64,000 nt of DNA from assembly GCF_018476645.1 (NCBI RefSeq), contig NZ_JAHCTB010000001.1, positions 248,001 to 312,000 on the forward strand. The letters are read 5' to 3'. Under the pieces are notes generated by a model. That model had not been told where the DNA came from, searched no databases, and saw nothing but the letters and a program-made list of their open reading frames with translations. The translations under genes were made by a program, and so were the position numbers. Shown here piece after piece: positions 17,548-61,536 of the stretch (the stretch's first letter is position 1; each line of letters starts with the position of its first letter). The DNA is from Aequorivita echinoideorum (GTDB lineage: Bacteria > Bacteroidota > Bacteroidia > Flavobacteriales > Flavobacteriaceae).

Positions 17548-19536
17548 ATGGAAGCTTTCATATTAAAATCCACTGCAATACTCCTCGTTCTTTACGTTTT
17601 TTACAAAATATTGCTGGAAAGCACATCCATCCACAAGTTCAAAAGGGTCTATCTGTTTTTGAGCTTGATCTTGCCATTTGCAATCCCATTCATCACTTTC
17701 ACAACTTATGTCGAAATTGAACCAATTATAGAAAATTTTGCAACGCAGCAACAACAAATTATATACGCTGAACCCACGCAAATTATAGAAACATTTAATC
17801 TTTGGCCCGTGATTTTGTGGACAGTGTACGGACTGGGAGTTCTGTTTTTCGGGATAAAATTCTTCGGAAATCTTTTCAGATTGATCCAAAATATGAATAA
17901 GAATCCGAAACGAAGAAATAGGCAATTCACCTATATTTTATTGAATGACAGCATGCTTCCCCATACTTTTTTCAATTTTATTTTTTTGAACAAAAAGGAA
18001 TTTGAAAGTGACAAAATCCCGCAAGAGGTATTGCTTCACGAGCAAACTCACGCCACGCAGATGCATAGTTTGGATATAATTTTCGTTGAACTATTGCAAA
18101 TTCTATTTTGGTTCAATCCGCTGTTTTATTTCATCAAAAAAAGCATAAAACTGAACCACGAATTTCTGGCGGACGAAGCGGTTTTACAAGCGGGAACAAT
18201 CCTCTCAAAATACCAAACCATATTACTCGCGTTCTCATCAAACGGCGAAACGCCTTCATTGGCAAATTCAATCAATTTTTCATCAATCAAAAAACGATTT
18301 ACAGTTATGAAAACAAAAACATCAAAAAAGGCAATTTTGCTACGCAGTCTACTCCTTTTACCATTGGTTTCCATTTTAATTTTCGGCTTCAGTTCAAAGG
18401 AAACTATTCAAAAACAGATTGAAAAATCCATTTCTTCTACTGAAAAAATTCAGGATATAAATATTAAAATAATTGAAGATTCAAAAATCCAATTGAATGG
18501 AAAATCCACAAATCTCGCAGCATTAAGTACAGAAATCAACAAGTTAAATACGCATTTAACAAACGAGCAAAAGCAAAAATACCTTTACGCAAATGTTGAA
18601 ATCACGAAGGATTCCCAAAAAGATTTAGCCGAAAAGATTTCCGAAATTCTTTACGCAAGCAATATTAGAATGTGGAATATTTCAAATCTTGAAAATGAAA
18701 AAAATGAGGGTTTTAAACATATCCCTTTTAAAAGTCCTACATCCGGAAAAAGTATTGCCGAGGCTGAAATAATTTATCGAGAGCGATTGGAGGAAATTGA
18801 TAAATACAAGAAATCCATTTCTCAAAATTCAGAAAATAATCCTTGGTCAATAGAATTGGGCGAGACAACGGAAAGGGATTCGGTAACTCGAAAAATTATT
18901 TCAAACAAAGAGAAGACTGATCAACAAAAATCACATACTCGCTTCGTTTTTAACACTTCCAAAAAAACAAATACCGGATTGAAAAAAGCAAAGTATTCAG
19001 AAAATTCAAATCTAAAAGGATTATTGCCTCCCCTAAAACCAGGTTTAGATCTCACCGCAAGAAACGTAGATATTGTTGTTTTTGAAGATGGCACATATAC
19101 TGTAAATGGAGTTTTTTCAACCAAACAAAATTTTGTGAAAACTGTCAATAAATTTCATCAAGATATAAGTGCTGATGTTCGAAACAAAATAATAAATATC
19201 CATCTTGAAAGCAAAAAATATATTCCGGATGCCGAGGTAAAATTTATATATAATTCACTAAAAGATTACGGATTTTACCGAATGGTTACGCCCAATCAAG
19301 AAATTATTCTTGCCAAAGGAAACACTCCAATGGAAAGTACAATAGGAATGTTTCCAATGGTAAACCCCGAAGAAACCATAAAAGAACTCACCAAAAAAGG
19401 TGCTGAATTTTACAGCGGCCCGCATAGAATTACACCAGACGAGGCTTTAGAATTGGTCAAAAAATTCAGGGAAACGCCTATTGAAGTAAACGAAAACGAC
19501 CCGCTAAAGCCCATCGTTATTCTCGGTGGCTGCTGA
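17548..19536 (+). CDS. M56-family (BlaR1-like) membrane metallopeptidase
   Basis: A 662-residue protein. Membrane helices lie at about 5-22, 33-52, 85-105 and around 260-280. The zinc-peptidase motif HEQTH is at residues 164-168, in the cytoplasm-facing loop, followed by HEFLADE, the third-ligand motif. After the last helix a long domain (about 280-660) lacks a penicillin-binding serine site, so it is a sensor of something other than a classical beta-lactam ligand. The C-terminus ends PIVILGGC. It pairs with the repressor just upstream to form a sensor-protease/repressor unit. Confidence 0.9.
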   Translation: MEAFILKSTAILLVLYVFYKILLESTSIHKFKRVYLFLSLILPFAIPFITFTTYVEIEPIIENFATQQQQIIYAEPTQIIETFNLWPVILWTVYGLGVLFFGIKFFGNLFRLIQNMNKNPKRRNRQFTYILLNDSMLPHTFFNFIFLNKKEFESDKIPQEVLLHEQTHATQMHSLDIIFVELLQILFWFNPLFYFIKKSIKLNHEFLADEAVLQAGTILSKYQTILLAFSSNGETPSLANSINFSSIKKRFTVMKTKTSKKAILLRSLLLLPLVSILIFGFSSKETIQKQIEKSISSTEKIQDINIKIIEDSKIQLNGKSTNLAALSTEINKLNTHLTNEQKQKYLYANVEITKDSQKDLAEKISEILYASNIRMWNISNLENEKNEGFKHIPFKSPTSGKSIAEAEIIYRERLEEIDKYKKSISQNSENNPWSIELGETTERDSVTRKIISNKEKTDQQKSHTRFVFNTSKKTNTGLKKAKYSENSNLKGLLPPLKPGLDLTARNVDIVVFEDGTYTVNGVFSTKQNFVKTVNKFHQDISADVRNKIINIHLESKKYIPDAEVKFIYNSLKDYGFYRMVTPNQEIILAKGNTPMESTIGMFPMVNPEETIKELTKKGAEFYSGPHRITPDEALELVKKFRETPIEVNENDPLKPIVILGGC

Positions 19537-26901: not shown

Positions 26902-27650
26902 TATTCTAAAATTTTATAGAGAACAGGTTTGCTGGGTGAGGCGTCATTTTCAAAGGAAGTGATCTGTAAATTCAACAAATATGCGCCATCTGTTATATGC
27001 TCGGGAACGTAGATCATTTCTGTAATGGTGCAAACTTTTCTGGGGTTTTCGGGATAATTCCAAAAGGCTTTATGAGCTAAAAGTTTGCCTTCGTCACGTT
27101 CTTTATCTACGGATGGCAAATCAATCAACAAATGTTTTACACCAATGTTCCGTAAAAAAAGTGCGGCTTTTTCGTGAAGAAAAGGCCAATTGGAATCTGA
27201 CCAGTGCTTTTCTTTTTTTTTTGAATTGTTTGGAAGCGTCCTAATAACTAATGCTTCCGGAGATTTTGCCGCCAACGCTTTTTTTATGATTTCTTCTGAA
27301 ATTATTTCGTCTTCCCTGAAATTTTCAGGTGTTACGGTAATAACTTCAGCCAAAAAGAAAAACGTTTTTAAAGATTCATTTATGGAATGAAATTCTTTTG
27401 AAATATGCCCAAAACATTCCGTGTGCGTACCGTGCGCGTGTGGATTGAATTGTATGGTATTGAAATTAACGGATGCGCCCTCAGAGACTTTTCCCGTCCA
27501 ATCGCCCATTTTTACAGGTTCAATCGAAGGTTTTTCCAAATACCAAGCTAGTGGATTCTTTTCTGAATCCTTCAAAACTATTGAAATATCTAAGGGTTTT
27601 GAAAAATCAACCTCTATCTTTTTATTGTGAATTTCAAGGGTAGCTTTCAT
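26901..27650 (-). CDS. cyclase-family (kynurenine formamidase-like) hydrolase
   Basis: A 249-residue protein of the cyclase family. The metal-binding signature appears as NPHAHGTHTECFGHI, a variant of H-x-G-T-H-x-D/E. The distal part HLLIDLPSVDKERDEG and FWNYPENPRKVCTITEMIYVP is also typical. Relatives hydrolyse amides or lactones (kynurenine formamidase, isatin hydrolase), and the substrate here is not evident. It overlaps the hemW stop by 4 bases. Confidence 0.88.
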   Translation of the reverse strand: MKATLEIHNKKIEVDFSKPLDISIVLKDSEKNPLAWYLEKPSIEPVKMGDWTGKVSEGASVNFNTIQFNPHAHGTHTECFGHISKEFHSINESLKTFFFLAEVITVTPENFREDEIISEEIIKKALAAKSPEALVIRTLPNNSKKKEKHWSDSNWPFLHEKAALFLRNIGVKHLLIDLPSVDKERDEGKLLAHKAFWNYPENPRKVCTITEMIYVPEHITDGAYLLNLQITSFENDASPSKPVLYKILE

Positions 27651-28780
27651 TCTTCTAAATGTATCAAAAATAAATCTGATGCAATTCCATCACTTAAAAA
27701 TTTTCCGTTTTCCGAAACTTTAAAAAATCCATTTTCGAAAACCAAAAGACCTTTTTTAATCTGAATTTCAACCTGTTCCATAAAGTAGTTATAGAAATTT
27801 TCGCCAAAATCATTCAATATTTTTTGGGCTGAAATTCCTTTTTGCGTGCGCAGGCCAGTCATAATATATTCATTGAATTTATCCTTTGCTGAAAGAATTT
27901 CCCACTCTGAGGGCAACTCCCCGGCTTCAATGCTTCTTATGTATTTCGAATTATTTGCAACGTTCCAACTTCGAATTTTTCCATTGTAACTATGCGCCGA
28001 TGGGCCAATTCCCAAATAGGGCTTTCCCTCCCAATACGCGGTATTGTTGCGGGAATGATAGCCGGGCTTTCCAAAATTTGAAAATTCATAATTTTCGTAG
28101 CCCGCCTGTTTGGTTTCCGTACGTAAAATTTCATAGTGCTTTTTCGCCATCGCATCATTAACTGGCGCAACAATTCCTTTTTTTATAAATTTTTCCAAAG
28201 CGGTTTTTGGCTCGACCGTAAGCGCATAGCAGGAAAGATGCGGAATTCCAAGACTGAGGGCGATTTCCAGATTTTTACGCCACCGCTTTTCAGACATTTT
28301 TGGAATTCCATAAATTAAGTCGATGCTTATATTTTCGAAATATTTCTTGGCCAATTCGATACTTTTCAGTGCTTCGTGCGCATTGTGCGCACGATTCATA
28401 AGCTTTAAATCTTCTTCAAAAAAAGATTGCACGCCTATGCTTAAACGATTAATTGGACTTTTGGATAATTGGAGTATTAAATTTTCCGACAAATCATCAG
28501 GGTTTGCCTCGAGCGTAATTTCTGGGTTATCGGAAATTTTATAATTTCTATAAATTTCAGAAATCAAAAATCTTAAATCCTCACTCGACAATAATGAAGG
28601 GGTTCCTCCGCCAAAATAAATAGTTTCAACCGTTTCAGCAATTTCATCTTTTCTTAAAACCAGTTCTTGACAGAGCGCCGCAAGCAGTTCATCCTTTTTT
28701 TTCAACGATGTGGAAAAATGGAAATCGCAATAATGGCAAGCCTGTTTGCAAAAAGGAATATGTAAATAGATGCCGCTCAT
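27647..28780 (-). CDS. hemW: radical SAM heme chaperone HemW
   Basis: A 377-residue radical SAM protein. The cluster-binding cysteines are C11, C15 and C18 (PFCKQACHYCDFHF, with the HemW-specific fourth-position C-D-F pattern). TIYFGGGTPSLLS and NRLSIGVQSFFEEDLKLMNRAHN follow, and the HemW C-terminal domain is LGIGPSAHSYNG to EYIMTGLRTQKGIS. HemW delivers heme to respiratory proteins. The lack of the coproporphyrinogen oxidase HemN features (longer N-terminus) supports the call. The ATG is immediately preceded by a 7-bp tandem array (28781-28815). Confidence 0.93.
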   Translation of the reverse strand: MSGIYLHIPFCKQACHYCDFHFSTSLKKKDELLAALCQELVLRKDEIAETVETIYFGGGTPSLLSSEDLRFLISEIYRNYKISDNPEITLEANPDDLSENLILQLSKSPINRLSIGVQSFFEEDLKLMNRAHNAHEALKSIELAKKYFENISIDLIYGIPKMSEKRWRKNLEIALSLGIPHLSCYALTVEPKTALEKFIKKGIVAPVNDAMAKKHYEILRTETKQAGYENYEFSNFGKPGYHSRNNTAYWEGKPYLGIGPSAHSYNGKIRSWNVANNSKYIRSIEAGELPSEWEILSAKDKFNEYIMTGLRTQKGISAQKILNDFGENFYNYFMEQVEIQIKKGLLVFENGFFKVSENGKFLSDGIASDLFLIHLEE

Positions 28781-28815
28781 TTTTCAATTAGCAATAAACA
28801 ATTATCAATTTTCAC
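28781..28815. repeat. 7-bp tandem array, left side of the four-helix-bundle gene
   Basis: Five heptamers of the form NNNNCAA: TTTTCAA, TTAGCAA, TAAACAA, TTATCAA, TTTTCAC. It covers the stop codon of the four-helix-bundle gene and ends at the hemW start codon. CAATAAACAAT at 28792-28802 recurs inverted at 29190-29200 on the other side of the same gene. Confidence 0.7.
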
Positions 28816-29170
28816 TATTTTTTATACGTGTTGCCTTTAAAATTGAAAACATAATCTTTGATAACTCGTCGGCATTTGAAAATAATAGATCATAATATTC
28901 GATAGATATGTATTCTGAATCTTTTAATAAAGACAACCAATATTTTGTTTCTAAACTTTCTTTATATGCCACAGAAATTTTTGCAGAAAAATCAGCCTTG
29001 GAAATGGCGCCATTTGCCTCCGCAATATTTGCCCCAATAGAAGTTCCAGATCTTAATAGCTGTTTTGACAAAAAATATTCCTTGTTTTGATTTGTCAATA
29101 TTTTATAAAGATCAATGATTTTTAGGGCAAAATTGTATGATTTTTCAGCGAGTGGATTCTCTTTATTCAT
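28805..29170 (-). CDS. four-helix-bundle (23S rRNA IVP/S23-like) protein
   Basis: A 121-residue four-helix-bundle protein: SYNFALKIIDLYKILTN, LSKQLLRSGTSIGANIAEANGA (the signature segment), SKADFSAKISVAYKESLETKYWLSLL. The family was first seen as open frames inside 23S rRNA intervening sequences, and a relative (bAvd) helps diversity-generating retroelements. No reverse transcriptase is nearby here. The gene is inserted between ruvC and hemW and is enclosed by inverted 7-bp arrays (28781-28815 and 29166-29200), one of which carries its start codon. Confidence 0.92.
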   Translation of the reverse strand: MNKENPLAEKSYNFALKIIDLYKILTNQNKEYFLSKQLLRSGTSIGANIAEANGAISKADFSAKISVAYKESLETKYWLSLLKDSEYISIEYYDLLFSNADELSKIMFSILKATRIKNSEN

Positions 29171-29200
29171 TGTTCATTGTTCATTGTTCATTGTTTATTG
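29166..29200. repeat. 7-bp tandem array, right side of the four-helix-bundle gene
   Basis: Four copies of TTCATTG and one TTTATTG on the plus strand (CAATGAA on the minus strand). The array contains the ATG of the four-helix-bundle gene and also supplies the last codons and stop of ruvC. Its outer end ATTGTTTATTG (29190-29200) is the exact inverse of CAATAAACAAT at 28792-28802. Confidence 0.8.
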
Positions 29201-29751
29201 ACCTTAGCTTCATTCTGTTTCACAAAAGCTGCCCAACCGGAATAACTTTTCCCGATTTCCGTTTTTCCCGAATTGTAAAAATGGCACACCGCAGCAGCGA
29301 GACCATCTGTACTATCCAGATTTTTGGGCAGAGTTTTAAGGGCCAAAACATTTTGAAGCATCTTTGCCACTTGCTCTTTGCTGGCATTTCCGTTTCCGGT
29401 GATTGCCATCTTTATCTTTTTGGGGGAATATTCCGTGATGGGAATTTGCCGCGAAAGCCCTGCCGCCATCGCCACGCCCTGTGCTCTTCCCAACTTGAGC
29501 ATCGATTGAACGTTTTTACCAAAAAAAGGCGCTTCAATGGCAATTTCGTCCGGATTGTGGGTATCAATCAATTCTATGGTACGTTCAAAAATCAGTTTTA
29601 ATTTTAGGTAGTGATCTTCATATTTTTTTAGTTGAAGCTCATTCAACTGCATAAATTCCATTTTTTTACCCACAACTTTTATCAATCCAAAGCCCATAAT
29701 TGTGGTTCCGGGATCAATTCCCAAAATTATTTTTTCAGTTTTAACGGCCAT
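29188..29751 (-). CDS. ruvC: Holliday junction resolvase RuvC
   Basis: A 187-residue resolvase of normal length. The catalytic acids are D13 in LGIDPGTTIMGFG, E in IAIEAPFFGKN and the D pair in LDSTDGLAAAVCHF. It cuts Holliday junctions together with RuvAB during recombination. It is first in the long minus-strand run. The final residues NKQ and the stop codon lie inside a heptamer array, so the original C-terminus has probably been replaced. Confidence 0.95.
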   Translation of the reverse strand: MAVKTEKIILGIDPGTTIMGFGLIKVVGKKMEFMQLNELQLKKYEDHYLKLKLIFERTIELIDTHNPDEIAIEAPFFGKNVQSMLKLGRAQGVAMAAGLSRQIPITEYSPKKIKMAITGNGNASKEQVAKMLQNVLALKTLPKNLDSTDGLAAAVCHFYNSGKTEIGKSYSGWAAFVKQNEAKVNKQ

Positions 29752-59981: not shown

Positions 59982-60064
59982 GCTAAAGGCTAAAGGCTAA
60001 AGGCTAAAGGCTAACGGCTAACGGCTAACGGCTAACGGCTAACGGCTAACGGCTAACGGCTAAC
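59982..60064. repeat. 7-bp tandem array, gene-free
   Basis: Four copies of GCTAAAG are followed by seven copies of GCTAACG and a partial copy. It lies just after the stop codon side of the DUF58 gene, within the 366-base gap between tRNA-Asp and DUF58 that otherwise holds nothing I can name. The two repeat types form blocks, which indicates expansion from one variant. No four-helix-bundle gene is next to it, unlike the other two arrays. Confidence 0.9.
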
Positions 60065-61064: not shown

Positions 61065-61082
61065 GTTAAGGGTAAAGGGTTA
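61065..61082. repeat. heptamer repeats, left side of the broken four-helix-bundle gene
   Basis: GTTAAGG, GTAAAGG and GTTA follow each other with a period of 7. GTTAAGGGT is the inverse of ACCCTTAAC in the larger array at 61460-61536 on the other side of the gene. Confidence 0.6.
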
Positions 61083-61433
61083 TTTGTCAACTTTTTTAAT
61101 ATAATTTCTTGTGCCTAAAAGAAGTTTTCTAACCGTAATTATTAATTCGTTAATTACCGTATCCTCTTTTAAAAATCCTAATCTAATGGATAGCAAATAT
61201 TGTGTTTCAACCTCAGCTAATGAACCTATAGCAATATGTATAAACTGTAAAAACTCCTTATTGCTTTTTCTCGCGGCGCCTTCAGCAATATTTGACGGAA
61301 TTGAAACTGAAGCTCTCCGTATCTGACTTTTAAGCCCTTATGTTTCTTCCTTTGGAAATTCATCACTCGTAGTATAAATTTTTTCCGCTAAATCCATACT
61401 CTTCAACCAAACATCCATTTCCTTGTGATTCAT
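61080..61433 (-). pseudogene. four-helix-bundle gene broken by one nonsense codon
   Basis: The frame begins MNHKEMDVWLKSMDLAEKIY, stops at TAA (codon 32, 61338-61340), and then continues unbroken with GLKSQIRRASVSIPSNIAEG (the family signature) to RNYIKKVDK, stop at 61080-61082. Relatives have E-T-Y-G-L here, so a single TAT to TAA change explains the stop. Total 117 codons, the normal family length. No start codon follows the stop early enough to rescue the helix bundle. It may be a recent inactivation or a sequencing error. Confidence 0.85.
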
Positions 61434-61459: not shown

Positions 61460-61536
61460 AGTAACCCTTAACTCTTAACTTCTAACCCTTAACTCCTAAC
61501 CCATAACTCAAAACTCATAACTCAAAACTCATAACT
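61460..61536. repeat. 7-bp degenerate tandem array upstream of the broken four-helix-bundle gene
   Basis: Eleven consecutive heptamers: AGTAACC, CTTAACT, CTTAACT, TCTAACC, CTTAACT, CCTAACC, CATAACT, CAAAACT, CATAACT, CAAAACT, CATAACT. The last unit touches the clpP stop codon. TAACCCTTAAC (61462-61472) is inverted relative to GTTAAGGGT at 61065-61073. Confidence 0.85.

Follow-up and report, generated by a model that had tools for sequence, protein, structure and literature searches.

Genes for a four-helix-bundle (4HB) protein of the S23p-like family PF05635 are commonly enclosed, in the genus Aequorivita and far beyond it, by inverted arrays of a 7-bp word, and this word goes with the lineage of the 4HB protein from site to site and from genome to genome. 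We consider it probable that the gene and its two arms constitute one mobile, IVS-like unit located outside rRNA, whose protein probably recognizes its own word. The starting point was a pair of loci in the 64,000-nucleotide stretch of contig C11 of the 2.93-Mb Aequorivita echinoideorum genome that we analyzed (hereafter the window); that the combination of gene and inverted arms occurs far beyond the window is a confirmed observation.

The window carries one intact and one broken copy. The product of the intact gene (28805-29170, reverse strand; 121 aa, delineated from frames and profiles) matches PF05635 at 93.5 bits against a curated cut-off of 33.8, and TIGR02436 at 98.6 bits against a cut-off of 24, in profile searches; 2rld is its only sequence match in the PDB at E <= 0.01. 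Upstream lies a presumably RuvC-like host gene (29188-29751, reverse strand) and downstream one that we take to be HemW-like (27647-28780, reverse strand). The upstream arm, located by TRF and flank matching, is a period-7 array of TTCATTG units (CAATGAA in the sense of the gene) at 29166-29200, with 5 copies at 96% matches; it covers the final codons and the stop of the RuvC-like gene, the last residues of which are thereby encoded by heptamers. The downstream arm (28784-28814; arm match 28784-28809) consists of CAATTAG/CAATAAA units, which TRF resolves as 4.4 copies at 75% matches. The 11-mer CAATAAACAAT at 28792-28802 recurs in exactly inverted form, ATTGTTTATTG, at 29190-29200. In the broken copy (61080-61433, reverse strand) a PF05635 match persists at 61131-61424 (C11:309131-309424) with one internal TAA. 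Its upstream arm of TAACCCT/TAACTCA units (61462-61536) is longer and degenerate, and its short downstream arm (61065-61090) has about 2.5 units of GTTAAGG/GTAAAGG and a weaker extension; GTTAAGGGT at 61065 recurs as its inverse at 61464. Both layouts described by the sequence-only reading are thus present, and both copies lie between protein-coding frames and not within rRNA. Taken alone, the two copies are suggestive and not decisive: with 60-nt flanks each scores 13.5, a value reached by 0.85% of 6360 mismatched flank pairs and below the cut-off of 14 that we use for the family. With flanks of 120 or 240 nt at 28805, the top pair is an unrelated coding-sequence match (29253-29268 with 28712-28727).

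At the level of the family, the evidence for the arms is strong. Each 4HB gene's preceding 240 nt were compared with its following 240 nt, taken as reverse complement, in a genus set of 82 loci at 34 distinct sites, comprising the 21 PF05635 matches held by the window's own genome and 61 loci from relatives; the latter were picked by rank of PF05635 score, which under-samples weaker members, and the set leaves out L055 and L109 (contig edge) and L070 (below the family cut-off). Inverted matching arms scoring at least 14 were found at 59 of the 82 loci, and 26 of the 34 sites have such a member, as against 1.65% of 6360 different-site pairs. The remaining 23 loci, both window copies included, fall under the cut-off; L065, for instance, scores 11.0. 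Hence, the earlier claim that the layout exceeds chance stands for the family as a whole and is softened for the window pair on its own. Direct, non-inverted flank matches of at least 14 occur at 15 of the 82 loci, with a null of 0.94%. The two outcomes named as refuting the sequence-only reading, a lack of arms at most other 4HB genes and arrays that are just as frequent next to unrelated genes, were both looked for and not encountered: most 4HB genes have arms, and in the own genome these flank 15 of 21 4HB genes but only 2 of the 302 genes in the control sequence, which totals 340 kb (Fisher p = 3e-19). The arms match themselves at 0.59 at a distance of 7 and 0.57 at 14, with 0.38 at 8 and 0.26-0.28 at the others.

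One of the two control genes with arms is a small GIY-YIG-like gene beside tRNA-Phe. We considered whether the small GIY-YIG genes might be another gene family with heptamer arms and rejected this: among 19 of them, 12 show inverted flank matches of at least 14 and 16 show direct ones, but their flanks are palindromic and REP-like, and heptamer arrays are near just 1 of the 19. Such genes stand in tandem at G002:C1:1928164-1929970 and G005:C11:80570-81126, mostly 356-360 bp from start to start. In L032 (18145-18552, reverse strand) a 95-aa GIY-YIG-like gene follows tRNA-Phe, which occupies 18479-18552; on visual inspection, the tail of the tRNA and a hairpin resembling a terminator are repeated beyond the gene, which resembles an insertion with duplication.

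Heptamer arrays are not confined to the 4HB genes. In the 340 kb of own-genome control sequence there are 31 period-7 arrays that adjoin no 4HB gene, as against 0 to 3 for each of the periods 4-6 and 8-11. These numbers bear on the simplest alternative, namely that heptamers are simple repeats arising from polymerase slippage with the 4HB gene as a bystander; slippage growth of heptamers is ascribed to Mrazek et al. 2007 in PMC4679880. Both the arrays away from 4HB genes and the enrichment of period 7 alone, which fits a general 7-nt slippage preference, accord with this account. Against it are the scarcity of matched inverted arms at other genes (the 2 of 302 above), the sharing by the two arms of one locus of a word that differs between loci, the tracking of the protein lineage by the word, and the finding of no period-7 array in 384 kb from eight Bacteroidota genomes devoid of PF05635. 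Thus, slippage alone is very unlikely, and the matching of the arms together with the link between word and lineage led us to reject it as a full account.

The lone arrays further resemble the words of the resident 4HB genes. The central 28 nt of 32 lone arrays match the flanks of the 21 resident 4HB genes at 0.638, as compared to 0.472 (sd 0.029) for flanks of 21 random non-resident genus loci, where the highest value among 2000 draws was 0.545. In seven PF05635-bearing Bacteroidota genomes we found 8 arrays in 400 kb, albeit in a small sample where they come from three of the seven genomes, two of these belonging to the window's own genus. The cleanest heptamer array of the window is itself a lone one: about 12 GCTAACG/GCTAAAG units at 59982-60064 that have no immediately adjoining 4HB gene, are close to an integrase-like frame and give a weak best match (0.45) to a resident 4HB gene. 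In L037 (5629-5689) and L025 (8280-8488), heptamer arrays that differ in their words and are opposite in polarity adjoin or face one another with no intervening 4HB gene.

The proposal of the sequence-only reading that the gene and its inverted arrays form one unit is supported by many junctions and by their unit-less counterparts in relatives. The unit, i.e., an arm, the 4HB frame and the inverted arm, spans about 400-520 bp and sits in junctions of tightly packed genes. Orthologous loci lacking the gene, the comparison proposed at the outset, were found at three junctions, ruvC-hemW, paaH-paaI and paaG-paaH (the paa names, PaaG, PaaH and PaaI, presumably denote phenylacetate degradation). 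At ruvC-hemW, a 4HB gene is present in 3 of 28 genus genomes (the own genome, G000, as well as G010 and G020), and the gap holds no PF05635 relative in the remaining 25: it measures 1 nt in 4 genomes, 77-78 nt in 3 and 1.2-1.4 kb in 17, and in one it is a bare 33-nt heptamer array. This last gap (L072, genome G041) contains a TCAGAAT array only, with a palindromic start, and might be a scar or a gene-less element. At paaH-paaI, both host genes are found in 24 of 28 genomes, with a 4HB gene between them in 7, abutment in 10 and 81-137 nt in 7; at paaG-paaH a 4HB gene is present in 5 genomes and the gap is zero in 5. The fewest presence/absence changes are 4 at paaH-paaI, 3 at ruvC-hemW and 1 at paaG-paaH, the last being too low as it omits G009, which carries a 4HB match at that junction; these counts come from an unrooted, poorly resolved species tree with 14 of 25 inner branches open and do not separate gain from loss.

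At filled sites the upstream arm enters the host gene, such that heptamers form the last residues and stop of PaaH or RuvC; in G000 the downstream arm, read in frame, provides a new N-terminus for PaaI. At the window and paaH-paaI loci that were read, the arms enclose the 4HB frame alone, and no transposase, nuclease or integrase frame lies within the units read. Likewise, no target-site duplication was recognized by eye at paaH-paaI or ruvC-hemW, where the arms overwrite gene ends. Three gene-less gaps at paaH-paaI (L140, L145 and L150) contain hairpins with self-scores of 14, 10.5 and 12; as the corresponding shuffle maxima are 11.5, 10 and 12, only the first clearly exceeds chance. A paa-like operon in the own genome (L022, G000:C20:272000-291999, together with C20:291830-292117) has six PF05635 genes in its gene junctions. 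They are mutually 16-52% identical and hence not recent tandem offspring; accordingly, the suggestion of an array-forming unit holds insofar as copies cluster in one operon and fails insofar as it implies their recent multiplication in place.

The existence of empty junctions also informs a second alternative, under which the gene would have inserted into existing heptamer arrays, with the arms as the split target. Lone arrays of similar words in the same genome and the bare array at ruvC-hemW of L072 are what such a target preference would provide. However, splitting an array should yield direct arms, whereas 59 inverted as opposed to 15 direct matches were observed among the 82 loci, and the unit-less junctions are mostly free of arrays, as in the four 1-nt gaps at ruvC-hemW and the ten abutting pairs at paaH-paaI. 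We hence regard a split target as very unlikely, slightly more so than slippage.

The heptamer itself changes from locus to locus, as claimed earlier for the two window copies, and the wider sample adds that it goes with the lineage of the 4HB protein. In different species the same junction often has a different word, with both arms changed together: within orthologous sites matched arms beat mismatched ones in 45 of 69 loci (p = 1.6e-4), while the same comparison counted by site (10 of 15, p = 0.068) is not significant. For pairs at the same site (n = 77), arm similarity rises with protein identity (Spearman coefficient 0.87); words thus differ at one junction because unrelated 4HB lineages occupy it. 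In the 4HB tree 7 of the 15 multi-member sites are monophyletic and 8 are not, and these non-monophyletic sites open the way to testing word against lineage across junctions. Related 4HB genes at different junctions indeed tend to share words (L122 with L059/L061; L046 with L107/L110; L057 with L112). Among the genus pairs from different sites with over 60% identity (n = 28), arm similarity exceeds that of the rest by 0.312, a difference equaled in 0 of 2000 permutations, and 5 of the 6 site pairs involved exceed the baseline's 95th percentile. When all 1634 genus pairs from different sites are taken together, the rank correlation is only weak (0.156; 1 of 2000), so that the signal sits in closer relatives, above about 60% identity.

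The same pattern emerges when all sets are combined (164 loci, 117 with arms): arm similarity is 0.20 under 30% identity, 0.27 at 50-60%, 0.47-0.50 at 60-80% and 0.72 at 80-95% (18 pairs), with 0 of 2000 permutations as extreme, and pairs near 50-60% identity are frequently without a shared word. Here L246 represents the ruvC-hemW group, six loci duplicating cyanobacterial genes were left out, and each non-genus locus was counted as its own site, due to which some 'different-site' pairs may be orthologous; as pairs share ancestry, the permutation counts are not exact probabilities. A single universal word was considered and rejected: the EM consensus of the upstream arm on the sense strand, TNTNAGN, is loose, and the window's lineage has the opposite polarity. 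On that strand G exceeds C at 41 of 49 sites, with the reverse at 3 and ties at 5.

Outside the genus, arms are present at 18 of the 34 loci sampled in other genera belonging to its phylum, with 1.0% of cross-locus pairs reaching the cut-off. The PF05635 genes L053, L168, L174, L181, L185 and L194, also from other genera, have arm scores no better than chance and may be settled host copies. When named genomes were searched with the protein of the window's intact gene, 80 loci at 61-78% identity were retained, 3 of which are cut by contig ends; arms occur in 55 of the 77 readable ones, and the units are mostly CAATTAA-, CAATAAA-, CAATGAA-, CAGTTAT- or CATTTAA-like. As many as 64 of the 80 are at ruvC-hemW in Flavobacteriaceae (RuvC and HemW homologues confirmed in 62, the other 2 being contig-cut), with arms in 41 of 61 readable loci, and this junction looks like an old site of the window's lineage. 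The mobility of that lineage is consequently drawn from the other 16 loci, which occupy 14 neighborhoods and have arms in 14 cases; they include records named Prochloron, Microcoleus, Nostoc, Scytonema, Westiellopsis, Balneolaceae, Acidobacteria and Pyrinomonadaceae, some of them from metagenome bins that are possibly impure. The window's lineage keeps its CAATNNA/CAGTTAT-like words into the cyanobacteria, in which the opposite strand of these words reads TAACTGA. More generally, six cyanobacterial genomes have arms at 19 of 24 readable PF05635 loci (6 of 30 loci are cut by contig ends); many of these arms are long and clean, and their words include GTCAAAA, AATTGCT, GGGGACT and ATCAGTT.

The conservation of the ruvC-hemW site raises a third alternative, namely that the arms are operators: an ordinary 4HB protein, inherited vertically, would bind them and so regulate its operon. 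The protein at this site is under strong purifying selection, the median dN/dS being 0.074 (44 pairs with synonymous differences below 0.6, among 55 loci), which also fits an ordinary host function; the retention of one site across many Flavobacteriaceae genera and the tie between word and protein agree with such a role too. The arms at this junction keep CAATNNA-like words, and 49% of the cross-locus arm pairs still score at least 14; as this word class persists despite synonymous saturation in most pairs, the arms are probably constrained, seemingly as maintained ends of a unit. The notion in the sequence-only reading that the arrays simply arise with each insertion is not supported in that form, for they follow the gene lineage and their word class outlasts synonymous saturation. 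An operator by itself, on the other hand, does not account for related genes with related words at different junctions, for the spread of the window's lineage to 14 other neighborhoods and other phyla, for the replacement of one lineage by an unrelated one at a single junction or for the stop within the matched frame in 10 of the 82 genus copies. We therefore judge a purely vertical operator to be unlikely.

A fourth alternative deserves slightly more credence, even if it too is on the unlikely side: the arms might pair as a stem in the transcript, as in the rRNA IVS, with RNase III excising the insert from the operon mRNA and selection on the stem keeping the ends complementary. The protein family and the enclosed layout are as in the IVS (PMC4990558). 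Moreover, 30 of the 34 genus sites are co-directional with both neighbors compared to 115 of 244 control genes; the neighbor-strand heuristic behind these numbers errs, calling 17 of 80 named loci divergent upstream though 64 are at ruvC-hemW, and its genus counts (74 of 82 loci, 30 of 34 sites) are approximate. On the opposing side, 151 loci show no G-U excess, with 113 wobble-type versus 126 anti-wobble transitions, and a smaller wobble test likewise gave 70 versus 81; with no signal in either, we discarded a stem constraint acting via G-U wobble. Further, a stem requires neither a 7-bp period nor a lineage-specific word, and 4 of 13 plasmid copies are oriented against both neighbors, making sense orientation a tendency and not a rule. 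An operator role and an RNA stem are both compatible with mobility; neither is exclusive of the mobile unit favored here.

The plasmid copies (13 of 25 hits, namely H1-H8, H10, H12, H13, H18 and H23) include Bacillota, Spirochaetota and Chloroflexota records. Inverted arms are present in 12 of the 13 and direct matches also in 5; besides the plasmid hits there were two phage hits. Several plasmid copies are found inside annotated defense-like loci (L377, L380, L382, L384, L385, L386, L387 and L388), in positions such as between cas2 and cas1, hsdS and hsdR or helicase and DNA methylase genes, after the DISARM gene drmD or before a Swt1-type HEPN gene.

We thus return to the mobile unit and advance the following plausible account of it. 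The arms and the 4HB gene would be inherited and would move together as one unit. The 4HB protein probably binds its own heptamer word in the arms, a proposition suggested by the co-inheritance of word and protein past synonymous saturation together with the ring structure reported for the Xanthomonas S23p. Such binding would keep the word and the protein matched and turn the arms into the unit's functional ends; it could also allow isolated arrays with that word to spread, or to be retained, at other places in the genome. To our knowledge, no catalytic activity is known for the 4HB protein, and movement might take place at the DNA level by means of the host's own replication or repair enzymes, which would be drawn to the arms. 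A dependence on reverse transcriptase, in the manner of an Avd-like accessory, was considered and set aside: RVT_1 has no match in G000 and is present in 6 of 24 genomes.

More tentatively, and with somewhat less than even confidence, we suggest that these units might represent a new class of mobile elements with a word code. Each ring-forming 4HB lineage would recognize its own 7-bp word, the arrays would be the ends of the unit and the lone arrays its non-autonomous relatives; the class as a whole could be the source of hitherto unexplained heptamer repeats across phyla, such as TAACTGA, the cyanobacterial GGGGAYT and possibly the GGGAATC of Xanthomonas. The protein would thereby gain a candidate ligand, its own word, and the heptamer repeats a candidate source. 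Among the matches listed from the open-access literature (subscription papers and preprints lie outside this scope), none links heptamer repeats to 4HB/S23p genes.

Several known systems share individual features with these units. Matched inverted ends and many dispersed copies are held in common with IS elements and MITEs; the 4HB unit differs in lacking an internal transposase, in word arrays that vary by lineage and in that no target duplication was recognized by eye at paaH-paaI or ruvC-hemW. The accessory protein Avd of diversity-generating retroelements is likewise a four-helix bundle of similar type; unlike in those systems, the own genome is without an RVT_1 match. In contrast to the RAYT/REP-like small-gene systems, the flanks of 4HB genes are period-7 arrays and not single palindromes, the palindromic trait belonging instead to the small GIY-YIG genes.

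Heptamer repeats as such are over-represented in many genomes, and their origin is not agreed upon (PMC4679880, PMC4692102). TAACTGA direct repeats are described from Beggiatoaceae, cyanobacteria and five Bacteroidetes including an Aequorivita (MacGregor 2015, PMC4679880); according to that paper, no transfer mechanism is evident, and the mobile element could be a protein that binds TAACTGA. Runs of ATCAGTT, which is TAACTGA on the other strand, are found in the arms that 4HB genes of the window's lineage have in Nostoc, Scytonema, Westiellopsis and a Balneolaceae bin, whereas the window copy has the neighboring word CAATGAA/CAATAAA. That work treats the repeats without this gene, the terms 'four helix' and '23S rRNA' being absent from its main text; if the proposed recognition holds, its published question becomes a simple binding experiment. 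Similarly, a G-quadruplex study (Rehm 2015, PMC4692102) describes the G-rich heptamers GGGGA(C/T)T (Nostoc) and GGGAATC (Xanthomonas) and reports 70 and 75 convergent inverted heptamer pairs in two Xanthomonas genomes and generally no association with mobile elements. Its text is free of the term 'S23'. A Nostoc 4HB copy (L318) has GGGGACT/GGGGATT arms.

The closest relatives of the units are the 23S rRNA IVS, after which the PF05635 family is named. PMC4990558 records IVS of 428-444 nt with an S23p frame from Leptospira, Coxiella and Brucella, solved structures for S23p/PF05635, its association with the rRNA IVS, a function given as not known and a homopentameric ring for the Xanthomonas protein. 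The same family, a similar size and a frame between complementary ends are shared, and the complementary borders that mark the IVS recur across the family, if more weakly at the window copies. Here, however, the units stand between protein genes, their ends are arrays of lineage-specific 7-bp words and they show no signature of RNA pairing; 17 PF05635 loci from several genera, mostly with weak or no arms, gave 0 Rfam matches at the gathering score when searched for an rRNA location. The 4HB protein and its enclosed layout are hence already familiar from rRNA, and, should the word code prove real, the units between protein genes would form a class of their own.
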